Shown here: in pieces, positions 6,348 through 27,345 of the stretch
Layout of the letters: every line of letters starts with the position of its first letter
Numbering within the stretch: position 1 is the stretch's first letter
Virus record (IMG/VR): IMGVR_UViG_3300043410_000175
Coordinates: 1-34,089 of that record
DNA length: 34,089 nt
Strand: one strand, 5' to 3'
DNA from: a virus
Notes under the pieces: model-generated
Seen by the model: only the letters and a program-made list of their open reading frames with translations
Databases searched by the model: none
Told to the model about the DNA's origin: nothing
Translations under genes and position numbers: made by a program

Positions 6348-7538
6348 TTAAATAGTGCCAGGTTCAAGAGGCTTAGGACTCTTAACAACACCTTTATAAG
6401 AACCATTAATAGAATCTGTGACATTCTGTACTAATGTTTGTGCATTAGATGGGAAGGTGAAAATGTTGTTTCTATTAGGTGTTCCTTGCAATGCTTGCGT
6501 CACTGACCCTAGTGCTTCTGCTTTTGCAATTTGTAATATGTTCTGTGGGTTCTTAAATGTATTAGCTGCTACACCTGCTTTTTGCACAGCACCTACAATA
6601 TTGCCGTTCTCTAAATCATCTAATATGCCGCCGGCCGCCGATACTAATCCACCTTGACCTAGTATTGTAGCATTGCTTCCGGGTCTAGATATAGGACTCA
6701 ATCTAGTATCATAATGTGTTTCTTCACCAAATCCTGGAACGAACGCTGCAGGAGTTCTTCCGTCAATAGCACCTTCGAAGTATTTTACAGTTTCATATTC
6801 TAAAGACATTCTATTTTCCATAGTTCCGTTTTCACTGTAACCATATGTGTCGTGAGAGAAACTTTGAATTATAGGATTGATTAATTTGTACAATACAAAA
6901 TTGTGTTGGTTGAAACCATAGATATTGATTGACTTAAAGAATGGAGCCTTACTCACACCTTGACTTGCTGCTTGGTTAGTAGCAGGAGACTTACCGGATT
7001 CTCCTACATAACCCCAATCATCACTTCCGGCAATACTTGGATCATATATGTTTCTATGATTTAGGTCATATCTTGCGCCATACCCACCGTCACCCAAAGA
7101 TGATTTTGAGCTTGGTGAGTTTGAATCTAATTGGGTAGCATCTTTATAATAATATGTATAATACGTATACCACATTCTACGTATCAAATTGCTGTTATCA
7201 TCATGGAACACAATGTTAACAGGGTCATAATTAATTTTAGTTTGTACAACACGTTTTCTGTTGTACTGATTCATTGTCTGTGTATTAAAAGTAAACTTAG
7301 GTAATTCGACAGATTTTACTGCTAACCCAAAATTTTGATCTTGTGGCCAATTTTGAGTAGCACCTATGTATTGCTTGTTTACATCAAAGTAAACATGAAA
7401 TAAGAATTTAAACTTAGGTGCATAACCGTACGCATTGGTTCTAAAGGTTTTACTTGCGTGAGTAAAATCACGCAAGTATTCATTGCCGAAAAAACCTTTA
7501 GCGGCGTCAGTTAATAAATTCTGTACGAATCCAGCCAT
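6348..7538 (-). CDS. Tail-tube-fold baseplate/tube protein (gp19-superfamily-like)
   Basis: A 396-aa protein right after gp19, coupled to it by TAATG. The N-terminal half carries features of the phage tail-tube fold: FKFLFHVYFDVN, AVKSVELPKFTFNTQTMNQYNRKRVV, then INYDPVNIVFHDD and MWYTYYTYYYKD. The C-terminal part (from about residue 250) is Gly/Ala/Asn-rich and probably flexible. In T4-like phages, proteins with this fold extend or initiate the tube (gp48, gp54), so a tube-initiator or baseplate-hub role is likely, but I cannot choose between them. Transcribed from the late promoter at 8188-8196. Confidence 0.72.
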   Translation of the reverse strand: MAGFVQNLLTDAAKGFFGNEYLRDFTHASKTFRTNAYGYAPKFKFLFHVYFDVNKQYIGATQNWPQDQNFGLAVKSVELPKFTFNTQTMNQYNRKRVVQTKINYDPVNIVFHDDNSNLIRRMWYTYYTYYYKDATQLDSNSPSSKSSLGDGGYGARYDLNHRNIYDPSIAGSDDWGYVGESGKSPATNQAASQGVSKAPFFKSINIYGFNQHNFVLYKLINPIIQSFSHDTYGYSENGTMENRMSLEYETVKYFEGAIDGRTPAAFVPGFGEETHYDTRLSPISRPGSNATILGQGGLVSAAGGILDDLENGNIVGAVQKAGVAANTFKNPQNILQIAKAEALGSVTQALQGTPNRNNIFTFPSNAQTLVQNVTDSINGSYKGVVKSPKPLEPGTI

Positions 7539-11200: not shown

Positions 11201-11782
11201 CACTAAATTTTCTGTAGGGATTACGGCGTAACTACCGATATTGCCTATAGATTGAACTGGATAGTTATCTTCAATGTACTCTGAATCTACTATCACAGTA
11301 GGTGTCTTTTGTGTGAACTTACCGGTATCAGCATTGAATTCATAGATACCCCATGTAGAATTAGTTGTATCTAACCAATAAGTACCGTCTGCTGGGTTTC
11401 CTGTAGGACGTGATAATGTACCTACTAACTGTCCTAAGTCGATATCTGCACGTAAAACATAAGCACGATTAGTAGCACCTAATAATGAATATGTTGCTAA
11501 TAAGCCATATTCATTTAGTTCGTAACCTTGAATTGGTGTACCGTTCGTTGTCTTATAGAAGAATGGAGTACCAAACAAGTTCACTAGGTCACGCTGACTT
11601 GTAACTTGATATAATTTATTTGCGTTTGCGGCTGTTGTTGCTGCTGCAACTCCTGTACCTGCTGCATTAGCTTTATTCTCTGCTGTTGCTAACAAGATTA
11701 AGGGAACTGAATTTGAGGCAGCAGGAAGATACTGACTTTGGTCAATGATTGTAACTTCTACGCCTGGTGATACTAGTGCCAT
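8231..11782 (-). CDS. 18: Tail sheath protein, T4 gp18-like, greatly enlarged
   Basis: An 1183-aa contractile sheath subunit. The N-terminus MALVSPGVEVTIIDQSQYLP and residues to about 120 (FGTPFF, GYELNEYGLLATYSLLGATNRAYVLRADID) and the C-terminus from about 800 (YQLQILARPFVFEPNDALTR, VAKRGLYDYLVVCDD, VAIEPVKAAEFIYIPVRV) are typical of T4-like sheath. T4 gp18 is about 659 aa, so roughly 500 residues are inserted between 130 and 790. The insert contains at least four short modules of the type G-x-x-W-(L/I/F)-x-(S/T): near W136, W351, W668 and W734, plus Thr/Ser/Gly-rich stretches. Such modules are common in fibres. The sheath core is complete; the insert probably faces outward. Ribosome site AAAGGAAA lies upstream of ATG 11782. 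Confidence 0.96.
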   Translation of the reverse strand: MALVSPGVEVTIIDQSQYLPAASNSVPLILLATAENKANAAGTGVAAATTAANANKLYQVTSQRDLVNLFGTPFFYKTTNGTPIQGYELNEYGLLATYSLLGATNRAYVLRADIDLGQLVGTLSRPTGNPADGTYWLDTTNSTWGIYEFNADTGKFTQKTPTVIVDSEYIEDNYPVQSIGNIGSYAVIPTENLVGDFARATYFYKNFNNEWVVLGSSDWKKAVPFVIGSNGNPTLNDGDYFSITVGSSFYLTVPIVTGDTTETLANKINALGVSYLFARTIDGRLAISYGEPGLNKNITLSNVSGTPLQDLGLATTSPSTFYCPDTSYGTSANMPLWTAGQSYPHPTGSVWIKTSIAGSGMDLNVSRYITSTDTWKSLVVGKYTSVAAAIGDLSSDGGKSIPAGTVIATYQQGTYATQFDPIPYEFLTLWEKTSTGSVTTTGTVTSPSITSGLDLTIVVSNSDGSVSTYVLTTTGTTATAFVSAWLSANIADTTASVSVNNAVQITHNNGGIILLSDIDTTGQSNGLLSELGFSQGGANVSYGSLAVYKNSAVSPKSVNSLAGSGGTYSITNFGTYYEIEVINGGSGYILGDTITFSGADIGGVDNTNDVTIRVMNDESLVPSPVASFTYVSGTPKQNYFVWLGNWSKLEYIANEGAPVTNPLNGTKWFYSTASQVDIMINKDGEWYGYGNVNYDQNGHPIDGSNTTDPNGPIVSTTAPTEQSSGDPLQYGDLWLDTSDLENYPKLSRWQMVDSLDQWVAIDNTDQTSQNGILFADARWANNGTVNPVNDPIVPISTLLTTNYIDLDAPDPTLFPQGMLLFNTRRSGYNVKQFTTNYFTAAKYPDMDLPTNSYTWVSASGLQSNGAAYMGRKAQRNMVVQALKAAIGTNQSILEEDTFFNLISCPNYPELQPDMVTLNNNRNNTAYIIGDTPLRLPDQATDLINWATNQAGAISTGEDGLVTRNEYMGLFYPSGITTDLTGAAVVVPASHMMLRTFLRNDTIAYPWLAPAGTRRGTIDNATNIGYLDAATGEFVVIKNRMAIRDVLYTNQINPLAYFTGIGLLNYGNKNVKDTQSALDRINVARLVAYIRYQLQILARPFVFEPNDALTRSQIQGVVQSLFIDLVAKRGLYDYLVVCDDSNNTPARIDRNELWIDVAIEPVKAAEFIYIPVRVLNTGEIASLK

Positions 11783-11834
11783 GTTAAATTTCCTTTATGT
11801 TATGATTATGAGGGTTAACGCCCTAACGTACATA

Positions 11835-11841
11835 TATTTAG
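11835..11841 (-). promoter_or_regulatory. Possible late promoter element for sheath gene
   Basis: Minus-strand CTAAATA, the variant reported for T4-like cyanophages, in the only intergenic space before the sheath gene. Predicted start near 11829 would give a 46-nt leader, longer than elsewhere in the window. Weaker than the other elements. Confidence 0.4.
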
Positions 11842-11894
11842 CGAAAATATTAAAAAATACCCAATTAGCGTACCTTCGAAGGTCTAAATACGTT

Positions 11895-12239
11895 ATGAGA
11901 CCTATCTGCAAAACTTGCAACAAAAACTTTTGTGCTGTGAATTACAAGCGCGGTGAGGTAACTCATTACCGAAGTTCATGTGATGAATGCGGTCGTAAAA
12001 AGAACAAGAAAAAACCTAGAGTTCCTAGTTGGCAGAAGTCTGGGTACAAGAAAAAAGCCACATGTGATTTATGTGGCTTTAAAAGTATCTACCCATCTCA
12101 AACTACAGTGTTTCACATAGATGGGAATTTAGAAAATTCAATTTTTACTAATCTCAGGACCATATGCCTCAACTGTGTTGAAGTCATAAAACGCAAAGAA
12201 GTCACTTGGCGTAGGGGTGACTTAGAGGTTGATAATTAA
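11895..12239 (+). CDS. Cys-rich HNH-like zinc protein
   Basis: A 114-aa protein with four CxxC pairs or partial pairs: C5-C8 with C13, C29-C32, C57-C60 and C91-C94. The C-terminal half reads FHIDGN, then N, then TNLRTICLNC, close to the core of HNH endonucleases (H-x-D-x-N...N-L...C-x-x-C), but the usual closing His after the last Cys is replaced by Val and the first His of the HH pair is Phe, so catalysis is uncertain. I start it at ATG 11895; the open frame upstream runs into the sheath gene on the other strand and has no domain. It lies alone on the plus strand and its 3' end overlaps the dNMP kinase gene tail to tail by 18 bases. Could be a homing-type nuclease remnant or a zinc-binding regulator. 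Confidence 0.72.
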   Translation: MRPICKTCNKNFCAVNYKRGEVTHYRSSCDECGRKKNKKKPRVPSWQKSGYKKKATCDLCGFKSIYPSQTTVFHIDGNLENSIFTNLRTICLNCVEVIKRKEVTWRRGDLEVDN

Positions 12240-12857
12240 ATCAATCTGTTTACGCAAATCATCTATAGTTCCGTTATTATCTAAGTAATGGTCATAGTTC
12301 AGTCCCACACTAGAATACTCACTTGCATGTACTCTATTCTTGTCTAGTTTAGCTTTGCTAATAGACCAAGCTGAGTTACCATCAGGACCCCTGTTAAATG
12401 CAATTGCGGCATCATACCAGTTTGGCCTGTCACCACGTTCTACCCTCATAGTTATTCCCCCGGCGTCTTTGATAGCTTTTACCTCATTAGAAAAACGACA
12501 GTCAGTAATTACAATGTCATCTTTGGCTTGACGTAGTTTGTTTTCTACGCTAGCTACCCAAATATCACTATGGAATCCCCTACGACAAACTTCAGTACCC
12601 CACTGTTGTAGTATCCACCTAGGAGTAAGGTCAGGCATGTCTAATCGTTCTGCCCACCAAGGATCTACTTTTTCTCTCCATTCACGGCTAGTCTTAGTTG
12701 TGCCTTCTAGCATTTCTCTGTCCCAACCAAATACTGATGCAACTGCGTCTTTAAGAGAAGCCGCAAAACTGATTCTTTTGAATCCGTGAAATGTACAAAG
12801 ATAGTCAGCAATAGTGTCTTTGCCGCTACCAATAAATCCGGTGACGCCTATAATCAT
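12222..12857 (-). CDS. 1: Deoxynucleoside monophosphate kinase, T4 gp1-like
   Basis: A 211-aa kinase with a P-loop at the N-terminus, G7-FIGSGKD14, then FHGFKRISFAASLKDAVASVFGWDREMLEG, the dNMP kinase substrate region, and RWILQQWGTEVCRRGFHSDIW, a hallmark stretch of phage dNMP kinases. ITDCRFSNEVKAI supplies the Walker B-like Asp. It phosphorylates dNMPs to dNDPs for phage DNA synthesis. Its start is preceded by an 11-bp hairpin that contains the AGGAG of its own ribosome binding site. It follows gp13 on the same strand after about 60 bases and converges with the Cys-rich gene. Confidence 0.92.
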   Translation of the reverse strand: MIIGVTGFIGSGKDTIADYLCTFHGFKRISFAASLKDAVASVFGWDREMLEGTTKTSREWREKVDPWWAERLDMPDLTPRWILQQWGTEVCRRGFHSDIWVASVENKLRQAKDDIVITDCRFSNEVKAIKDAGGITMRVERGDRPNWYDAAIAFNRGPDGNSAWSISKAKLDKNRVHASEYSSVGLNYDHYLDNNGTIDDLRKQIDLIINL

Positions 12858-12866
12858 AAAAGAAAA

Positions 12867-12895
12867 CTCCTGTAATACTTATTATATTACAGGAG
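12867..12895 (-). promoter_or_regulatory. Hairpin hiding the dNMP kinase ribosome site, possible terminator
   Basis: A perfect 11-bp inverted repeat (12867-12877 with 12885-12895, CTCCTGTAATA/TATTACAGGAG), loop 7. On the minus strand the 3' arm ends in AGGAG, followed by TTTTCTTTT and the ATG at 12857. The structure can act as a terminator (hairpin plus T-rich tract) or as a lid on the ribosome site. The 5' arm and loop contain TATAATA, one base short of the late consensus and also a sigma70 -10 match, but no -35 is placed correctly. Confidence 0.75.
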
Positions 12896-12916
12896 CGTGA
12901 CGAAATAAATGTCAGT

Positions 12917-13678
12917 TTAACCAATTATCCAAGTTAATGGCTGTGAATGGTCAACATAACGCTTCAACTCGTCTATTAAATCTTTCTGTTGTTGTAAGCC
13001 TTCCGACTTCATTGCTGTACCATTTAATGATGTACCACCACCTGGGCCTGCAATTGAACCAAACTTTTCACGTGCCTCACCTATAATCATTTTACAGGTA
13101 GCCAATGTGAAGTCACCAATCCATATTCCTGCTCCTGGATCTTGTAGCAACTCTGCTTCAGGGCGCTGAATGTCGGCCCATATAAGTATCTGTTCTCCAC
13201 TAGCTTTAGGATCACGTACTATTTTAATCTGTTTCGTAACGGGGTTGAATGTATAGATAACATACCCACCGAACATACGTGCGGCTAATTCAATGTAGCC
13301 TGCATAGAAATCGTATGTAGCCAAACCACCTGCGTAGTTGTAATTCAACAAATACGTATTAAGAATAGCACTTGAGAATGGGTCAAAGCTACTTGCGGCT
13401 GGACCAGTTTCTAAACCAACCGTTCTACGAAACACTTGTCGTACACTCATAAACTCTTGGGGAAGAGTATAAATGTAAGTGTCCTTTTCCATCTTCATTA
13501 ATGTGTAAGATTCTATCGTAGAGTTTTGTGCCCTCTGACGATAGATTTTAATGGAATAGGAATAGGCTGCTTCTAAGTGAGCAGGGTCTAATTCAATATC
13601 TACGATTCCGTCACCTAAACGCAATCTGATATTTTGGAATAATGCTTCTTTTAATTCGTCTAACGATAGACCGGCCAT
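12917..13678 (-). CDS. 13: Neck protein, T4 gp13-like
   Basis: A 253-aa protein resembling the gp13 head-completion/neck proteins of T4-like phages: N-terminal helical LSLDELKEALFQNIRLRLG and VDIELDPAHLEAAYSYSIKIYRQR, a central ILNTYLLNYNYAGGLATYDFYAGYIELAARMFGGYVIYTFNPVTK, and C-terminal FTLATCKMIIGEAREKFGSIAGPGGGTSLNG. gp13 and gp14 seal the portal after packaging and receive the tail. Here it is on the opposite strand from gp14-gp15 and separated from them by two early-type genes. Its start has a nested late promoter and hairpin (13685-13709). Assignment to gp13 is by recalled family resemblance; exact neck role is inferred. Confidence 0.75.
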   Translation of the reverse strand: MAGLSLDELKEALFQNIRLRLGDGIVDIELDPAHLEAAYSYSIKIYRQRAQNSTIESYTLMKMEKDTYIYTLPQEFMSVRQVFRRTVGLETGPAASSFDPFSSAILNTYLLNYNYAGGLATYDFYAGYIELAARMFGGYVIYTFNPVTKQIKIVRDPKASGEQILIWADIQRPEAELLQDPGAGIWIGDFTLATCKMIIGEAREKFGSIAGPGGGTSLNGTAMKSEGLQQQKDLIDELKRYVDHSQPLTWIIG

Positions 13679-13684
13679 AAAAAT

Positions 13685-13709
13685 CTCCAGATAATGTATT
13701 TATCTGGAG
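13685..13709 (-). promoter_or_regulatory. Hairpin with embedded late promoter before gp13
   Basis: Perfect 10-bp stem (13685-13694 with 13700-13709, CTCCAGATAA/TTATCTGGAG), loop 5. On the mRNA the 3' arm ends in GGAG, then ATTTTT and ATG 13678. The late element GATAAATAC (13704-13696) spans the 5' arm and loop. A late start near 13691 would lack the whole 5' arm, leaving GGAG free in a 13-nt leader. Read-through RNA from the early promoter at 15304-15332 would form the hairpin and either stop at the T run or be untranslatable. Confidence 0.8.
13696..13704 (-). promoter_or_regulatory. Late promoter element for gp13
   Basis: Minus-strand GATAAATAC inside the hairpin described for 13685-13709. 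Confidence 0.75.
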
Positions 13710-13716
13710 CTGGCTA

Positions 13717-14124
13717 TTACAGATCACCTTCTTTTCGGTTCTCGCTATAGAATGCATCAAAGTGTCCGCCCGGGTACCGTGCTTCAAGTTTTGCAACATT
13801 CTCAGCAATTACCTCGTTAGGATCATATCCAAGTGCCCTACAAGCATTGATCCAATACCAAATGATATCACCGAGTTCACGCTTCATGTGAAAACGATTA
13901 TCCTCATTGAATGGCTTACCTTGGAACAACATCTTTTTAACGATTTCGTTAAACTCGCCTCCTTCACTTGCTAGACCAATACCGGCTGTAGCAAGCAATG
14001 GAACATTTAGTCCTAGTTCTTGCAATTCAAGTACACGTGCAATAAACGTACCTGTGTTGTTACTTGCGTCACTTGTGACTGCTTGGACAAAGTCCTGATA
14101 TTTGTTTAAATCAATTTTACTCAT
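13717..14124 (-). CDS. MazG-like nucleotide pyrophosphohydrolase
   Basis: A 135-aa all-helical protein carrying the metal-binding signature of MazG proteins: E54-GG-E57 (in LASEGGEFNEIVKK) and, 25 residues on, E83-LG-D86 (in KRELGDIIWYW). These hydrolyse (d)NTPs to monophosphates; in marine phages they are proposed to clear abnormal nucleotides or adjust host (p)ppGpp signalling. A single domain, shorter than E. coli MazG (263 aa), as usual in phages. It is coupled to the upstream 384-aa gene by TAATG and both lie under a sigma70 promoter, so it is probably expressed early, consistent with a nucleotide-metabolism job beside dNMP kinase. Confidence 0.88.
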   Translation of the reverse strand: MSKIDLNKYQDFVQAVTSDASNNTGTFIARVLELQELGLNVPLLATAGIGLASEGGEFNEIVKKMLFQGKPFNEDNRFHMKRELGDIIWYWINACRALGYDPNEVIAENVAKLEARYPGGHFDAFYSENRKEGDL

Positions 14125-15278
14125 TAGAATGCTTTCAAAATAATCATGTTCTCATTAAAGCGACCGTTAGGTGTAGTACTGACAGCTTTAATGTCCTTAA
14201 AGAATTTACGTGCCGCAGGCTTTGAACCCATGACTTCTTTAATTTGCTCACCCGGCTTACGCAGGGTTTTAATCTCGCTCTGATTAGTATCAAAGCCTAG
14301 AATTGTATTACCCTTGACTGTAAAAGTCTTAGAGTACTCATCCGCAATATAGTGATGCAGTTTGCGCTTGCTAGTATCATATACCCACGCTTCACTAGCA
14401 CCGTGAAGTTTTGTAGGATGGATACTGATAAGATCCAGCTTATTTGCGGCGTCTTTGAATTCCTTCATGTACTTGAGTTTAGCTACAACTTTCTCAATAG
14501 GAACTGCCTTGCGCTTACGTGGCGCTTTGCTTGCTTTCTTAATAGAAATGTAACTGTTCAAGTCACCTAGAACGCCGTCGATGAATTTAGTGATGTTTCG
14601 AACCTGAACCTTACCCAAATGTTTGTATGCTTCGGTTAGGTCTTTGTCTTTGCCCTCACTCAATTGCTCAAATTCTTCCTGCTTTTTCTTCCAGATATCA
14701 ACAATCAACGGAATATGTTGGGGCATAACGTTGAAACGTGCTACAACATCTACAGTTTTGGCACTTGCTTTACCCACTTGTATAAAATCGTCAAACACAC
14801 CCTCAAGTTCACCTGCGGCTTCGCGGGCTTTGTCACGCATAATTTCCTGTACATTAGGACGATTGGTGACTTTTTCTTCTTTGACTTCAACAACCTTGAC
14901 TTTCAATTTAGTCAATCGGGTAATCTCGTTTTCGAGAGTCAATTCCTCATGTTCGTTGAGTTCTAGACCACGCAATGTCATACGTGCTAGCCAGCAATGT
15001 GTCATTACAAAATCGCGGTCATCAATTTTGCGAATAAGTTTGGCTTCATTTTCACGCTTATTGTGATCCAAATACTGCGCCAATAGTTCTTTTGCATCCT
15101 TCTTACCGTAGAAACGGTTGTACCACGTAAAACCTTCTGTCAGTTTCGTGGTTCGTTGTTCACTTTCGGGCTGAATTGGGAAGAATGGCTCGTTACCCAT
15201 ATACTTTGTATCAGCATCACGGGGATTCAATGCTTTCACAAAATGGTCGCCAGTCAGTTTGGGTTTACGTGTAGCCAT
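14124..15278 (-). CDS. Unknown early phage protein, 384 aa
   Basis: I do not recognise a domain. The protein is highly charged (Lys/Glu-rich) with long helical segments, for example residues about 60-180 (LLAQYLDHNKRENEAKLIRKI, LTLENEITRLTKLKVKVVEVKEEK) and a basic patch KKASKAPRKRKAVP. C-terminal stretch HPTKLHGASEAWVYDTSKRKLHHYIADEY looks like a compact beta domain. It has a strong AAGGAG site and is the first gene downstream of the only perfect sigma70-type promoter in the window, so it is most likely made early by host RNA polymerase. Similar proteins occur in marine phage genomes as unnamed products. Followed by MazG with TAATG coupling. Confidence 0.8.
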   Translation of the reverse strand: MATRKPKLTGDHFVKALNPRDADTKYMGNEPFFPIQPESEQRTTKLTEGFTWYNRFYGKKDAKELLAQYLDHNKRENEAKLIRKIDDRDFVMTHCWLARMTLRGLELNEHEELTLENEITRLTKLKVKVVEVKEEKVTNRPNVQEIMRDKAREAAGELEGVFDDFIQVGKASAKTVDVVARFNVMPQHIPLIVDIWKKKQEEFEQLSEGKDKDLTEAYKHLGKVQVRNITKFIDGVLGDLNSYISIKKASKAPRKRKAVPIEKVVAKLKYMKEFKDAANKLDLISIHPTKLHGASEAWVYDTSKRKLHHYIADEYSKTFTVKGNTILGFDTNQSEIKTLRKPGEQIKEVMGSKPAARKFFKDIKAVSTTPNGRFNENMIILKAF

Positions 15279-15303: not shown

Positions 15304-15332
15304 ATTATATAGTGTAATCCATTTATTGTCAA
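15304..15332 (-). promoter_or_regulatory. Perfect sigma70-type early promoter
   Basis: On the minus strand TTGACA (15332-15327), a 17-base spacer, then TATAAT (15309-15304): full match to the bacterial housekeeping consensus with ideal spacing. Predicted start near 15297, about 18 bases before ATG 15278, with AAGGAG between. It reads the 384-aa gene and MazG and points away from the late promoter of gp14 on the other strand. Confidence 0.92.
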
Positions 15333-15382: not shown

Positions 15383-17284
15383 ATGCCAAGACTCTCATTA
15401 TACCGTCCCGATAAAACAAACGATTATAGATACCTAGACCGAAACATTAGGGAAATGTTTGTTGTGGGTGGAACGGATTTATATGTCCACAAGTATGTAG
15501 GAATCGGTAATACTGGCCCCAGTAATGATTTTACTCAGCCACAGTATGATGCATTAAATCCTACAAATATACAAGATTTACTATTCTTAGAAAACCGCGA
15601 TAGAAAATATGATCCAGATATCTATAGACTTCGTGGACATTACAACGTACAGAATTTAGATTTTGACTTAAGCCAATTTGGATTGTTCTTAAACAACGAT
15701 ATCATATTCATTACTGTACATTACAACGACATGATTGATTTGATTGGTCGTAAATTGATGGTTGGTGATGTTTTAGAATTGCCACATTTAACAGACTATC
15801 ATCCATTGAATGAAACGATACCAATAGGATTGCGTAGATATTATCAAGTAACTGATGGTAACTTTGCAAGCGAAGGTTTTACTCAAACATGGTATCCTCA
15901 CTTATGGCGTATTAAATGTGAGCCATTAGTAGATAGCCAAGAATTTGCTAACATTCTTTCTCAGCCAGTAGAGAAAGATAATTACTTAGGTGACTGGGAT
16001 CCTACAAAAACGTATGTACCTGGTTATACAGTTATGTACGGTGATAAAATTTATACACCAATTGCGCCCGGTCCTGTACCAGCTGGCATTCCACCTACAG
16101 ACCCTGCATATTGGGAATTAAGTACTGCTGACAATCTTCGTGATATCATAGGACGTTACAATCAGAATATTGCTATCAATGATGCTGTAACTGCTGAGGC
16201 TGCAAGATTGTTACCTAAGACAGGTTACGACCGCAGTCAGTTATATGTTGTACCTACGTTCGAAGGACAGCCTGCATTGCCCGTTAACGTATTAGCCCCG
16301 TCAACAAACCCTGTACCAACTAGAGGTTTACTAGAGATGGTTCATAATCCATTATACAGAAATCCTAGCCCAGTAATACGTATTGGTGCAGCCGCATTGA
16401 AGAAACTGTGGTCATTGACTAGTGATGATGCAGATAAATTACGCAACCTAATATCACTCAACTTACAAACTGCAAAGATGGCTCCTGATCGTTTAGATAC
16501 AGGATCTGGTCAAGTTGATGGTACATTAGTATTAACTGCAAAAGCAGCAGGTCCAATAACAGGACCATACGGAACAGCAGACAACACATACTCAACTGCT
16601 GACCAATTCCCATCATTTACTATCACATCGTTGACAGTTCCTGCAGGAACTACATTGATTAGCTCAGTAGATGTTACTAGAGATTTAGTACCAAACATAG
16701 ATGTTGCGGCTACTGTCACTACCGAAACAGGTGCAGTGGTTGATGTTTTTGAGCGTGGCACATACGTTGTTAGTGTAGATTATGTAGCTAATACATTTGT
16801 AATTAATTTACCAACACTAGCATACATGCCTAGTGGCACCGCTATCACAGTTGCTCCTACTTTCGCAGATGCTGTAACTCCTGTAATGGATTTCCGTGCT
16901 GACTGTGATCCTAGATTTAGATTTATTTCACGTGTAAGCCCCGAGAGTTTCGGTTATACAAATGGATATATGATAGGTGACGGAACTGCACCTAACGGAT
17001 TACCAGTCGGATCAGGTATTGTATTCCCTGCTAGCGCAAACGTAGGGGATTATTTCTTACGTGTAGATTACACACCCAACCTATTATATCGTTGGGATGG
17101 AACTTTATGGGTTAGAATTGGCGTAAGTTCACGTGCAGGTGTGTCGTTTGATTCAACTGTACCAGGACAACAGTCTCAGTTGGCAAGTTTCATCAACAAC
17201 GAACAGACATTGGTATTGACAGATGGTACCGTAGTACCACAACAACAACCATTGTCAACGTTATTATCAATTGTACCAGATTAA
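15383..17284 (+). CDS. 14: Neck protein, T4 gp14-like, enlarged with binding-type modules
   Basis: A 633-aa protein. Residues about 70-195 (RLRGHYNVQNLDFDLSQFGLFL, HYNDMIDLIGRKLMVGDVLELPHL, YYQVTDGN, WYPHLWRIKCEPLVDSQEFANIL) match the core of T4 gp14, which joins the portal/neck to the tail. T4 gp14 is about 256 aa, so there is a large extension. Residues about 203-246 (DWDPTKTYVPGYTVMYGDKIYTPI...PPTDPAYWEL) look like a CBM5/12-type chitin-binding module (W...Y..GD.V.Y..K.Y......P......W). The C-terminus holds NVGDYFLRVDYTPNLLYRWDG and TLWVRIG, another Trp/Gly module. The protein heads a plus-strand late operon with gp15. The core assignment is firm; the carbohydrate-binding call is inference. 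Confidence 0.82.
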   Translation: MPRLSLYRPDKTNDYRYLDRNIREMFVVGGTDLYVHKYVGIGNTGPSNDFTQPQYDALNPTNIQDLLFLENRDRKYDPDIYRLRGHYNVQNLDFDLSQFGLFLNNDIIFITVHYNDMIDLIGRKLMVGDVLELPHLTDYHPLNETIPIGLRRYYQVTDGNFASEGFTQTWYPHLWRIKCEPLVDSQEFANILSQPVEKDNYLGDWDPTKTYVPGYTVMYGDKIYTPIAPGPVPAGIPPTDPAYWELSTADNLRDIIGRYNQNIAINDAVTAEAARLLPKTGYDRSQLYVVPTFEGQPALPVNVLAPSTNPVPTRGLLEMVHNPLYRNPSPVIRIGAAALKKLWSLTSDDADKLRNLISLNLQTAKMAPDRLDTGSGQVDGTLVLTAKAAGPITGPYGTADNTYSTADQFPSFTITSLTVPAGTTLISSVDVTRDLVPNIDVAATVTTETGAVVDVFERGTYVVSVDYVANTFVINLPTLAYMPSGTAITVAPTFADAVTPVMDFRADCDPRFRFISRVSPESFGYTNGYMIGDGTAPNGLPVGSGIVFPASANVGDYFLRVDYTPNLLYRWDGTLWVRIGVSSRAGVSFDSTVPGQQSQLASFINNEQTLVLTDGTVVPQQQPLSTLLSIVPD

Positions 17285-19840: not shown

Positions 19841-20728
19841 TTAACACCAGTTGTTAATACCAACTAATGTATAACCAGTTGCTGTGTCAACATTTCCACC
19901 GTCGTTGAAGAATGTCGCAACAAACTTAGTGTTTGTACCATCTTCAGGAGTAACAGTATTGTCAAAATCACGTACCCAATGATTGGTTATTTTAGTAGCA
20001 TATGTTGTGTCACCATCGTTATATACTGCAACACTTACTTGATTTGGACCAGCTGGGTCTGATGAGTCAGTCAATGTGCATACTCCTACTGGGTATACTA
20101 CACCGTCTGTTGTTAGTCCAGAACCACTTGCGGTTGCGGTAAACACAACGCCTTCAGTAGCATTTTGAGGAGCACCTAGAGCAGCCCAGTCAGTATCTTG
20201 TAAATCTGAAATCATATATGCTTGTCCAGGAGCGATACCCTCGTCTTGTATACTAATGTAACTAACTATTAAGAATTTCTTTGCACCTTTTTGACGTAGA
20301 AGACCAGAATTGTTTACTGTAGCTACATAGAAAGCTGCGTCAGTTACTTCAACATTAGCAGGATCTTGCAATGTAATAGTTTCTGCATCATCAACTGAAT
20401 CTACAACTCCTACTAGTGTATATCCGCCTGCACCATCATCAACATAAACTTCTGAATTTCCACTTGATAAACTGTACACATCAAATACGGTATCTGTACC
20501 TATTACTTGGTCTGTTGTGTCAGTTGTGATGGTACCAACGGCTTTTACTAAAATTCTTCCGTTTGCTGCAATTTGTTTTGAGTATGTAGAAGTTCCACCT
20601 TGTGTACCACCTACGACACCAGGATTATCACCATCGTAACCGTTACTAGTTGTACCGTCGTTTGGAAAACCTTCATCGATATGAGTTCCATTGTCATTTT
20701 GTTTTCTAATTTTTAGAGGACGTCCCAT
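19841..20728 (-). CDS. Virion structural protein, beta-rich, likely abundant
   Basis: A 295-aa protein beginning MGRPLKIRKQNDNGTHIDEGF. I associate the MGRPL(K/N) opening with structural proteins of marine T4-like phages. The body is Gly/Thr/Asp-rich beta modules, for example GTITTDTTDQVIGTDTVFDVYSL, VYVDDGAGGYTLVGVVDS and a SGLLRQKGAKKFLIVS stretch. No enzyme motif. It has its own late promoter, an unusually long (about 79-nt) structured leader, a strong AAGGAG site and its own terminator, so it is a monocistronic, probably highly expressed late gene. A decoration or other surface role is possible but not shown. Confidence 0.75.
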   Translation of the reverse strand: MGRPLKIRKQNDNGTHIDEGFPNDGTTSNGYDGDNPGVVGGTQGGTSTYSKQIAANGRILVKAVGTITTDTTDQVIGTDTVFDVYSLSSGNSEVYVDDGAGGYTLVGVVDSVDDAETITLQDPANVEVTDAAFYVATVNNSGLLRQKGAKKFLIVSYISIQDEGIAPGQAYMISDLQDTDWAALGAPQNATEGVVFTATASGSGLTTDGVVYPVGVCTLTDSSDPAGPNQVSVAVYNDGDTTYATKITNHWVRDFDNTVTPEDGTNTKFVATFFNDGGNVDTATGYTLVGINNWC

Positions 20729-20807
20729 TTGTTTTTTCTCCTTATAAATCAGTGGGTTCTAGCCACTACGCGGCGGGGACCGCATAAATTCTCCGAATGA
20801 GAATGTA
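20729..20807 (-). promoter_or_regulatory. Structured 5' leader of the 295-aa gene
   Basis: About 79 nt from the predicted late start (near 20807) to the ATG. It holds three small hairpins: ATTCTC/GAGAAT (20788-20793 with 20799-20804), GCGG/CCGC and AGTGG/CCACT, then an open AAGGAG. It is much longer than other leaders here and locally GC-rich, suggesting a stabilising leader as in T4 gene 32. Confidence 0.6.
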
Positions 20808-20811
20808 TTAA

Positions 20812-20820
20812 GTATTTATC
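20812..20820 (-). promoter_or_regulatory. Late promoter element for the 295-aa gene
   Basis: Minus-strand GATAAATAC at the end of the 351-aa gene; predicted start near 20807. Confidence 0.65.
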
Positions 20821-21874
20821 AAATTGCGGTCAAATTGACCTGGTATGTGGTGCTAGTTGCACTGTCTGTACAGAAGATACCACCAACATTAGCGAAAATA
20901 GTCCATGTACCTAACTGTAATGTATTAGCAGTTACATTACCTTCGCTAGTGAAGTCACCTGTATACGTCAATGGACCTACACCACTGCGTCCTAATGAGG
21001 CTGTGTCGCTTGTACCGAACACGATGTATGCGTTTGCATCATCTTCTACACCCTTAATTTGTATAGTGTCGGATACGTTAATATCACCTATCCAAGCATC
21101 ATCACCTACTTTGTAGTTTTCACCAGCACCATTAGATGTTGATAGGACTTTGTTTGCTGTTAACGTATGGGCAATGGTTACATTGTTGTTAACTGTAACG
21201 CTAGAGAATGTAGCTACTCCGGGTGTAATACTACCAATAGTACCATCGAACTTACCTTGACTATTAGCTACAACAGTATTAGCATAAATTATACCACTTA
21301 CAGTTAATGCTTGTGCAACATAATCATACGTGAAATGACCATTACCACCAAAACTACCACCGTCGTTAAATTGAACTTGTTGGTTAGAACCAGTTGGGCT
21401 TCCACCGCCCCCACCACCTGATCCTGGCATCCACGATAAATTACCACTACCATCTGTAGTTAATACGTATCCGTTAACTCCACCGGTGATTGATAGATTA
21501 GCTTCGGATCCTAAGTTTAATTTAACATCTGCGTTTGGCCCTAGTAAATTACCAGTATAGTTTTCCCATACATTTCCCACACCAGTCACGATATTAGCCA
21601 CCAATATTTGTCCGGCATCTAATGTCGTATCATCAATATTAACTGATGAATTAGCCGAACCAGTAATTCTACTAAAGTCTAAGTAAGACTGTGTAGTTAG
21701 AATCTCTGTTTGAGTTGTAGCATCTACGTTAGCAGGAGGAATTATGTCAGGATCGTTTCCGATAAAGACACGTTGTTCGTCTGTGGCAAAACCGATTTCA
21801 CCGATATCTAATTGAGGTAGATCGGTGTAAGCTCCGGTTCTGTGAATTATCTTGGAAATCTGTACTATAGCCAT
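20819..21874 (-). CDS. Tail fibre-like / virion protein, 351 aa
   Basis: The N-terminus MAIVQISKIIHRTGAYTDLPQLDIGEIGFATDEQRVFIGND follows a frequent phage fibre opening (I-x-x-R-x-G...L-x-x-G-E-I-G-F-x-x-D...I-G). A poly-Gly linker near residues 150-160 (GSGGGGGGS) leads to GSNQQVQFNDGGSFGG, a motif shared with the truncated fibre at 1-1731. The rest is beta-repeat-rich (ANTVVANSQGKFDGTI, ANKVLSTSNG). It is likely a fibre or fibre-attached protein; no enzymatic motif. Its late promoter is nested in an 11-bp hairpin that takes in the start codon (21873-21904). No Shine-Dalgarno sequence is visible, unlike the neighbours. Confidence 0.78.
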   Translation of the reverse strand: MAIVQISKIIHRTGAYTDLPQLDIGEIGFATDEQRVFIGNDPDIIPPANVDATTQTEILTTQSYLDFSRITGSANSSVNIDDTTLDAGQILVANIVTGVGNVWENYTGNLLGPNADVKLNLGSEANLSITGGVNGYVLTTDGSGNLSWMPGSGGGGGGSPTGSNQQVQFNDGGSFGGNGHFTYDYVAQALTVSGIIYANTVVANSQGKFDGTIGSITPGVATFSSVTVNNNVTIAHTLTANKVLSTSNGAGENYKVGDDAWIGDINVSDTIQIKGVEDDANAYIVFGTSDTASLGRSGVGPLTYTGDFTSEGNVTANTLQLGTWTIFANVGGIFCTDSATSTTYQVNLTAI

Positions 21875-21904
21875 AATATAATCTGTTTGATTATATTATT
21901 TATC
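21873..21904 (-). promoter_or_regulatory. Late promoter nested in a start-codon hairpin
   Basis: Perfect 11-bp stem (21873-21883 with 21889-21899, ATAATATAATC/GATTATATTAT), loop 5. The first two bases of the ATG are in the 3' arm. The late element GATAAATAA (21904-21896) overlaps the 5' arm; a late start near 21891 would leave only 3 bases of it, freeing the start codon in a 17-nt leader. Confidence 0.75.
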
Positions 21905-21909
21905 TGGAT

Positions 21910-22596
21910 CTATAGGAACTTTGAATAGTACTGCTCTAGTCTTTTATACCATTCTTGCTGCCATTTGTCAAATTCATCACCCTCAATGATGAATTCTGCA
22001 TATACAGCATTAGGATCACTCATAAAAATCACGCCCTTACGTATGTTTGTACCGTGTTTTTCGTTGTGTGCTGTGGCATAAGCGGCTAATTGAATGAAAT
22101 AGTCACTGATCCATTCACGCTTTTTGATTTTGTTTGCTTGCTTATGATCCATAATAGCTGGTTCGCCATCATGTACTCCCACTAAATCAGTTGTTCCTGC
22201 ATATACTGCTGGGAAGTATAAGGGAACTTCTGTGCCCCAGAATTCATTACATTTACTCAATCCTTGATAGATGATAGTCTCAGCCATCTTGTGACTTTGA
22301 ATTGAATACGGATTTGATCCAGGTGTACCTATTTTTCCTGTTTTGATGTAATCTTCTAACCACTTGTGCATTCGTGTACCACGACCTGCAGCCTCTGTTG
22401 TAATCTGTTGAGCCTTCTCTGTGCCCACACGCTTACGCCATTCGTATAGTGCTTTCTTTGCTTCTTCGGGTTTAGTTGCGTCTAATATCGTTGTGACTGA
22501 GGGGAGTTTGTTTCCGTCAGGGGTAGCATATCTGCGACCTTCGGGTGTGTCAATACGTTTAATTGGTTCGTATTTAAATTTATCGGGAATGTACAT
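21910..22596 (-). CDS. PD-(D/E)XK nuclease (RecB/Cas4-like exonuclease)
   Basis: A 228-aa nuclease-fold protein. Visible motifs: LPSVTTILDAT (31-41), GTRMHKWLEDYI (73-84, the conserved His77 helix), E123 in FWGTEVPLYF, D137 in GTTDLVGVHDG, D150-H-K152 in AIMDHKQ, and Q169-x3-Y173 in FIQLAAYA. The order H...D...(D/E)xK...QxxxY is that of RecB-type nucleases. Such phage proteins degrade or resect DNA in recombination or host DNA breakdown. The start follows a 10-bp hairpin. It sits among virion genes with no replication gene beside it, so its exact task is open. Confidence 0.87.
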   Translation of the reverse strand: MYIPDKFKYEPIKRIDTPEGRRYATPDGNKLPSVTTILDATKPEEAKKALYEWRKRVGTEKAQQITTEAAGRGTRMHKWLEDYIKTGKIGTPGSNPYSIQSHKMAETIIYQGLSKCNEFWGTEVPLYFPAVYAGTTDLVGVHDGEPAIMDHKQANKIKKREWISDYFIQLAAYATAHNEKHGTNIRKGVIFMSDPNAVYAEFIIEGDEFDKWQQEWYKRLEQYYSKFL

Positions 22597-22602
22597 GTGG
22601 AA

Positions 22603-22632
22603 ATTGTACTACAAATTTCTTCGTAGTACAAT
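22603..22632 (-). promoter_or_regulatory. Hairpin upstream of the nuclease gene
   Basis: Perfect 10-bp stem (22603-22612 with 22623-22632, ATTGTACTAC/GTAGTACAAT), loop 10, ending 6 bases before ATG 22596 on the mRNA. Only a poor late-like CAAATAG precedes it and only TTT follows, so it may be a weak terminator for the upstream operon or a translational lid. Confidence 0.6.
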
Positions 22633-22640
22633 CTATTTGG

Positions 22641-27070: not shown

Positions 27071-27098
27071 AAGAATTCCTAATATTACTTATTTATGC
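27067..27098 (-). promoter_or_regulatory. Late promoter pairing with the start codon region
   Basis: CATAAATAA (27097-27089) is part of a 6-bp inverted repeat GCATAA/TTATGC (27093-27098 with 27067-27072) whose 3' arm contains the ATG at 27070. A late start near 27084 removes the 5' arm and leaves a 14-nt leader with AGGAA. Confidence 0.55.
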
Positions 27099-27318
27099 TC
27101 TTACTGAACCTATCCTGATCTCTGTTCTTAATAGCAAGTAACAACTTCTTTTCTAGGATTTGAGCCTTTTCATTGTCATAATGCTTATTAATCATTTCCA
27201 ATAAATTAATGGCGCTGGTAATAATATTATGGGCTCTGCTCTCAATAATGTGCTTGGTGTCACGATTATTGCCTATCGCCTCTAATTCTTCTAACAGACT
27301 ACGGGTTTTTCTTTGCAT
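27085..27318 (-). CDS. Small helical phage protein
   Basis: A 77-aa protein, almost wholly helical and charged: MQRKTRSLLEELEAIGNNRDTKHIIESRAHNIITSAINLLEMINKHYDNEKAQILEKKLLLAIKNRD. No motif. It has a late element 19 bases upstream (overlapping the helicase stop) and its end overlaps the next late element. It could be a small DNA- or protein-binding accessory; no function can be assigned. Confidence 0.7.
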   Translation of the reverse strand: MQRKTRSLLEELEAIGNNRDTKHIIESRAHNIITSAINLLEMINKHYDNEKAQILEKKLLLAIKNRDQDRFSKSINK

Positions 27319-27336
27319 AATGTAAAGGTCCTACTT

Positions 27337-27345
27337 GTATTTATC
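27337..27345 (-). promoter_or_regulatory. Late promoter element for the 77-aa gene
   Basis: Minus-strand GATAAATAC overlapping the stop codon of the helicase gene; predicted start near 27332, 14-nt leader with AGGACC. Confidence 0.7.

Follow-up and report, generated by a model that had tools for sequence, protein, structure and literature searches.

In bacteriophage T4, the late promoter of gene e, like those of soc and 49, lies in the 5' portion of a hairpin in which the ribosome-binding site is buried, and measurements on e have demonstrated that the long early RNA is silent whereas the short late RNA is translated (PMC3014915). A similar arrangement has been described for I-TevI, I-TevII, I-TevIII, segB and mobE of phage Aeh1, where the late promoter is placed such that late transcripts lack the 5' arm, and hairpin genes of the I-TevI type sit within an early or middle transcript (PMC2988022). 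The T4-type late element itself is positioned 'one helical turn upstream of the start' (PMC2988020), and in phages CBB and GAP32, with a gp55-like sigma factor encoded, ATAAATA late promoters precede structural genes (PMC5259590).

Analysis of the window, that is, the entire 34,089-nt stretch of DNA, which comes from a large T4-like phage, revealed a hairpin that, judging from its sequence and from the comparison with relatives, very probably functions as a cis-acting temporal gate on translation of gp13, the late gene for the neck protein, or head-tail adaptor Ad2 (12917..13678, minus strand; phrog_211, E 1.4e-23; 57 phage records). Read on the minus strand from 13709 to 13685, the hairpin has the sequence CTCCAGATAA-ATACA-TTATCTGGAG, with 10 perfect pairs and a 5-nt loop. 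The T4-type late element GATAAATA (13697..13704, minus strand) is split between the 5' arm, which holds GATAA, and the loop, which holds ATAC; the Shine-Dalgarno sequence GGAG (13685..13688) ends the 3' arm, with 6 nt separating it from the gp13 ATG at 13678. An earlier sequence-only reading had described exactly such a perfect 10-bp stem with these two elements in opposite arms, and the sequence bears this out; of its statement that the stem is followed by TTTTT and ATG, the T run (13679..13683) and the ATG hold, but the T run is separated from GGAG by an A. The predicted folding energy is −13.6 kcal/mol (z = −4.6), and none of 200 shuffled sequences was equally stable. Perfect stems of at least 10 bp with loops of 3 to 8 nt are themselves in excess, with 5 in the window against 0.23 expected from shuffles, and three of the five are located at gene starts, namely those of gp13, the deoxynucleoside monophosphate kinase (dNMP kinase) and gene 21874.

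In T4, TATAAATA occupies positions −13 to −6. By this rule, the predicted late +1 is the sixth base after ATAAATA, at 13691, between the hairpin arms, which reproduces the start proposed in the sequence-only reading. The cost of opening the gp13 Shine-Dalgarno sequence is calculated at 10.7 kcal/mol in read-through RNA compared to 0.55 kcal/mol in the predicted late RNA. Among the window genes with a recognisable Shine-Dalgarno sequence, to which this comparison was limited, gp13 and the gene after it, dNMP kinase (9.9 kcal/mol), are the only two with this site strongly buried in read-through RNA, all others requiring no more than 5.4 kcal/mol.

The late motif is not enriched in the window as such (16 copies of ATAAATA, 15.2 expected); nearly all of the sites, however, lie directly 5' of genes, and the motif precedes late genes. 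The form GATAAATAC occurs six times on the minus strand and not at all on the plus strand, with a count of zero for the reversed-pattern control, and ATAAATAC is likewise strand-biased in the records of relatives (for example, 13 vs 0). Among the 16 copies of ATAAATA, only the one at gp13 is embedded in a stable hairpin that holds a Shine-Dalgarno sequence. A gp55-type sigma factor is absent from the window, which is only a part of the genome; it is encoded in CBB, in PA5oct and in the 223-kb record of the close relative L078.

Upstream of gp13, on the same strand, the perfect sigma70 promoter claimed in the sequence-only reading is indeed present (15304..15332, TTGACA-17-TATAAT, 12 of 12 consensus positions). 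This presumed early promoter is located about 1.6 kb from gp13 and is followed, in order, by the phrog_11903 gene (14124..15278, minus strand; E 1.7e-61), the first of a presumed early operon, a gene for a MazG-like pyrophosphatase (13717..14124, minus strand; phrog_229, E 5e-49; PF03819) and gp13 itself, and a terminator scan found no terminator-like site on this strand between the promoter and the gp13 hairpin. From this layout, we infer that RNA from early promoters upstream of phrog_11903 and MazG would read into gp13 and fold such that GGAG is hidden, so that little neck protein would be made early. Late RNA polymerase would then use GATAAATA within the hairpin, and the new RNA, starting near 13691, would lack the 5' arm and carry a leader of about 13 nt in which GGAG is open, allowing gp13 to be translated.

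The conservation of the stem in relatives is compensatory. We collected approximately 330 gp13 loci from scans of viral contigs and added 12 loci of cultured jumbo phages; a near-identity search of cultured phages gave no match, whereas a protein search did. Close relatives (73-80% protein identity) all share the late element unchanged, and their stems vary on both sides, yielding variants such as CTCCAG/CTGGAG, TTTCCTG/CAGGAAA and GTTACCTG/CAGGTAAC, among others. In a MAFFT alignment of 54 distinct sequences, all of which retain the late element, 86.7% of the cells in the stem are paired compared to 74.0% after shuffling, and 88 cells are changed on both sides compared to 36 ± 5. The covariation score of 0.363 far exceeds those of the shuffled controls (0.157 ± 0.012) and those obtained when the partner was slid (0.05-0.08), so that the alignment check for compensatory changes suggested earlier came out positive. 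In the cultured jumbo phages CBB, RaK2, PBECO4 and XaC1, where gp13 is 32-38% identical to the protein of the window, hairpins of the same design have stems of unrelated sequence, whose 5' arm carries TAAATA and whose 3' arm carries GAGG or AGGGG. We denote a locus gated when the opening cost in read-through RNA exceeds that in late RNA by at least 4 kcal/mol; by this definition, applied to 269 dereplicated loci, all 14 of the CBB/RaK2-type loci are gated. At every one of 84 gated loci, the bases that pair with the Shine-Dalgarno sequence from the 5' side all lie upstream of the predicted start.

The same comparison bears on the possibility that the hairpin and the T run form an intrinsic terminator or attenuator that stops early RNA before gp13, the hidden ribosome-binding site being incidental. 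The hairpin was flagged in the terminator scan, and a T run is present in the window and in 12 of the 14 loci of the CBB/RaK2 group. However, the close relatives keep the stem but mostly lack the T run (TTTT in 10 of 56), and the late element and the Shine-Dalgarno sequence remain in opposite arms whatever the sequence of the stem. Because the U run is so poorly conserved, we rejected termination as the main function, an explanation that we consider improbable, and view it as secondary; the earlier suggestion that the T run also stops the early transcript is weakened by the same counts.

The presence of the gate depends on gene context. The genes upstream of gp13 cluster into same-strand neighbours, namely MazG, phrog_14786 and phrog_11903, and the divergent phrog_11591, which encodes a virion protein; in the window, the latter is found at 15383..17284 on the plus strand, and many relatives have it immediately next to gp13 in divergent orientation. 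Among evaluable loci, those with a same-strand upstream gene are gated in 34 of 36 cases for MazG, 14 of 14 for phrog_14786 and 15 of 37 for phrog_11903, compared to 11 of 57 with the divergent phrog_11591 and 1 of 11 with other divergent neighbours. With a stricter cut-off, 76 of 113 same-strand loci are gated vs 6 of 74 divergent leadered loci, these counts being taken without regard to relatedness. Orientation and gating are both bound to clades: the tree accommodates about 10 changes of context, and a paired test of orientation against gating is powerless, with about 2 informative pairs out of 8. In other late-motif genes of the same loci, the design is rare (a difference of 8 or more in 3%).

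Several of these observations count against a gate, including the clade-bound distribution, the gating of only 15 of the 37 evaluable phrog_11903-type loci, and the junction between the DnaB-like helicase gene and gene 27085-27318 in the window (27318-27344, minus strand), an early-to-late junction with a late motif and no hairpin, which indicates that gates are not universal at such junctions. Furthermore, the MazG stop codon lies 7 nt 5' of the stem, so that terminating ribosomes could disturb it. Carried further, this proximity leads to an explanation by translational coupling, under which ribosomes finishing MazG open the stem, so that gp13 is produced alongside MazG instead of being silenced. 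Most MazG-type relatives are similarly spaced; nevertheless, the stem persists where other genes precede gp13 and where the spacing is wider (in the CBB type, stop codon and ATG are about 50 nt apart), and coupling has no need of a late promoter inside the hairpin. We regard coupling as improbable too, slightly more so than termination.

The divergent loci require separate consideration. There, the palindrome consists of two back-to-back late promoters, with the Shine-Dalgarno sequence outside, as in loci L111, L095, L156 and others, where GTATTTATC...GATAAATAC lies between gp13 and the divergent virion gene. A crude hairpin score wrongly flagged these loci because of their palindromic promoters and was therefore replaced by the Shine-Dalgarno opening cost. 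Such palindromes, together with the perfect inverted repeat over the gp13 promoter in the window, would be compatible with an operator or promoter feature recognised as double-stranded DNA. However, the sequence of the arms is free to vary provided that pairing holds, the window's remaining late promoters are non-palindromic, and G-U pairs are tolerated: mispairs of the G-U type outnumber those of the A-C type by 30 to 20 in the gp13 stem and by 62 to 11 in the kinase stem described below, which mildly favours pairing in RNA over pairing in DNA. A DNA-level function thus seems very unlikely. Least likely of all is an RNA thermometer or a protein-binding operator, switches that commonly take the form of a hairpin over a Shine-Dalgarno sequence, given that we find no conserved loop or bulge beyond the letters of the promoter and that such a switch would not explain why the start is predicted between the arms at every gated locus.

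The distances between the late motif and the ATG of gp13 are bimodal, at 5 nt and at 15-24 nt. In 57 of the 269 dereplicated loci, the motif ends exactly 5 nt before the ATG (L305, L286, L310 and others), such that the late mRNA is predicted to start at the A of ATG, with no Shine-Dalgarno sequence. A different hairpin, between the late motif and the ATG, is found upstream of gp13 in L251, L253, L240, L247, L252 and L254; here the Shine-Dalgarno sequence lies in or beside the loop (e.g. AAGGGGGACTGGAGTCCCCCTT), and the predicted late start is within the 5' arm. Hairpins that contain TAAATA and hide a Shine-Dalgarno sequence also occur at other genes, of the radical SAM, dNMP kinase and unknown kinds (L256/L259 at 1951, L055 at 1937 and L271 at 5125, all on the plus strand, and the small gene that follows gp13 in L083/L087). 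A search of the open-licence literature found no report of a hairpin at gp13, nor any describing leaderless late mRNAs of phages of this kind.

The sequence-only reading had named loss of the stem in relatives that keep the promoter as evidence against its interpretation. Such losses do occur; mostly, however, they coincide with a divergent late neighbour or with an intervening structured RNA, that is, they appear to fall mostly where the gate model needs no stem. The structured RNA came to light through the ungated exceptions in the close clade, which have a conserved, strongly structured non-coding element of about 380 nt in the gap between MazG and gp13 (L077:2546-2930, plus strand; also L051, L063, L019, L061 and 65 viral contigs, L355-L418 and L059). 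Of the 65 viral contigs, all of which contain its 19-nt core, 52 have a gp13 start no more than 500 nt downstream of the core, several of the others ending before that point. The element has no credible match in Rfam (one hit, E 6.7) and none in the cultured phages searched, and we detected in it neither a tRNA or tmRNA nor a long open reading frame across it; identification as a group I intron or a tmRNA, judged by the motifs of these RNAs, was unsupported. An alignment of 36 distinct copies shows changes on both sides at 26 of the 38 predicted pairs, with 211 double-change cells vs 53 ± 8 after shuffling; since this alignment also served to predict the structure, the comparison is biased in its favour.

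The gp13 stem is weak in the presence of the element: the median opening cost is 3.7 kcal/mol in 30 loci with the element vs 11.9 kcal/mol in 48 loci without it, and 7 of 30 compared to 44 of 48 are gated. On the gp13 DNA tree, about 11 independent pairs can be formed, of which about 7 combine the element with a weak stem and practically none show the opposite. The sign test gives a median p of 0.016 over all branches; confined to well-supported branches, it comprises 5 pairs with p 0.125, which adds to the points against the gate. The contrast is what would be expected of a gate maintained only if early RNA can run straight into gp13.

The dNMP kinase gene that follows gp13 (12222..12857, minus strand; phrog_139, E 4e-49; PF21448) is preceded by a hairpin of what may be the mirror type (12866..12896, minus strand; −17.6 kcal/mol, z −6.2), with a stem of 13 bp including one wobble and AGGAG in the 3' arm. 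In this case, TATAAT (12886-12881) spans the end of the 5' arm and the start of the loop, the predicted start about 7 nt past it (12874) again lies beyond the 5' arm, and TTTA(C/T)TTT is conserved at the −35/−30 position of the predicted promoter. The stem covaries in 45 relatives, with 30 double-change cells vs 10.5 ± 2.5 and a score of 0.370 vs 0.253 in shuffled and at most 0.173 in slid controls, and the kinase is gated in 38 of 51 close loci vs 14 of 65 in other clades. Perhaps, then, late RNA from gp13 cannot make the kinase, whereas early or middle RNA starting at the predicted promoter can; in addition, the T-rich tail of the kinase hairpin in the window could end the gp13 RNA. The published T4 gates are said to be all of late genes on early or middle RNA (PMC2988022). 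A true mirror gate at the kinase would mean that silencing in phages also works the other way, on an early gene carried by late RNA. We give roughly even chances to a broader model under which gates of both polarities separate temporal classes within one string of genes, early-to-late through the late promoter in the gp13 hairpin and late-to-early/middle through the TATAAT promoter in the kinase hairpin, and the ~380-nt RNA can replace the gp13 gate, insulating gp13 in another way.

Other structured sites were observed in the window. An 11-bp stem at 21873-21899 (minus strand) has a 5' arm overlapping a late motif GATAAATA and a 3' arm that includes the AT of the ATG of gene 20819-21874, an Mtd_N-like tail protein gene directly downstream of an exonuclease gene, with few and partial relatives. 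The exonuclease gene (21910-22596) is itself directly preceded by a 15-bp hairpin (22596-22640, minus strand; −16.5 kcal/mol, z −5.7) without a clear internal promoter, and the Rfam cis-regulatory RNA freshwater-2 (RF02980, 67.2 bits) is found at 20726-20804 (minus strand), just 5' of gene 19841-20728. A terminator-like stem AAAGCCACATAAATCACATGTGGCTTT with a T run (12054-12080, minus strand) lies between the dNMP kinase and tail sheath genes, inside the opposite-strand open reading frame 11745-12239, and an 11-bp inverted repeat, TACTTGCGTGA...TCACGCAAGTA, occurs at 7451-7478 inside the tail-tube-like gene 6348-7538.

Taken together, these results support the interpretation of the gp13 hairpin as a gate of the T4 gene e/soc/I-TevI type. 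The layout matches those reviewed for e and I-TevI (PMC3014915, PMC2988022), and gp13 shows, by sequence and prediction, a paired Shine-Dalgarno sequence, a late start beyond the 5' arm, compensatory conservation and a same-strand upstream promoter with no terminator-like site in between. The mechanism is already known; what appears to be new is gp13 as a member, the breadth of its distribution, a probable mirror gate and the structured RNA. The e/I-TevI gate was established with a few T4 genes; in the present case, compensatory change documents a known trick at a structural gene in dozens of relatives, with unusually strong evolutionary support. The natural contrasts, in which a divergent neighbour or an intervening structured RNA accompanies a weak stem, make the hiding of late ribosome-binding sites a comparative question, and the unrelated stems in the cultured jumbo phages CBB, RaK2, PBECO4 and XaC1 make the gate directly testable there. 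As at e, soc and 49, the ribosome-binding site of gp13 is hidden by a hairpin whose 5' part contains the late promoter. The gp13 gene differs from e in encoding a neck protein behind one perfect stem, and in that its gate is argued from compensatory change and natural contrasts, that of e from experiment; furthermore, early expression would be obviously costly for e, whose product is a lysis protein, but not for gp13. With the I-TevI group, gp13 shares, by prediction, a late RNA without the 5' arm and a location within an early or middle transcript, although those genes are mobile, encoding homing endonucleases, and gp13 is structural. Finally, the late motif 5' of a structural gene is the same as in CBB and GAP32, and while the main text of the CBB paper (PMC5259590) makes no mention of late-promoter hairpins, CBB gp13 shows the same predicted gate here.
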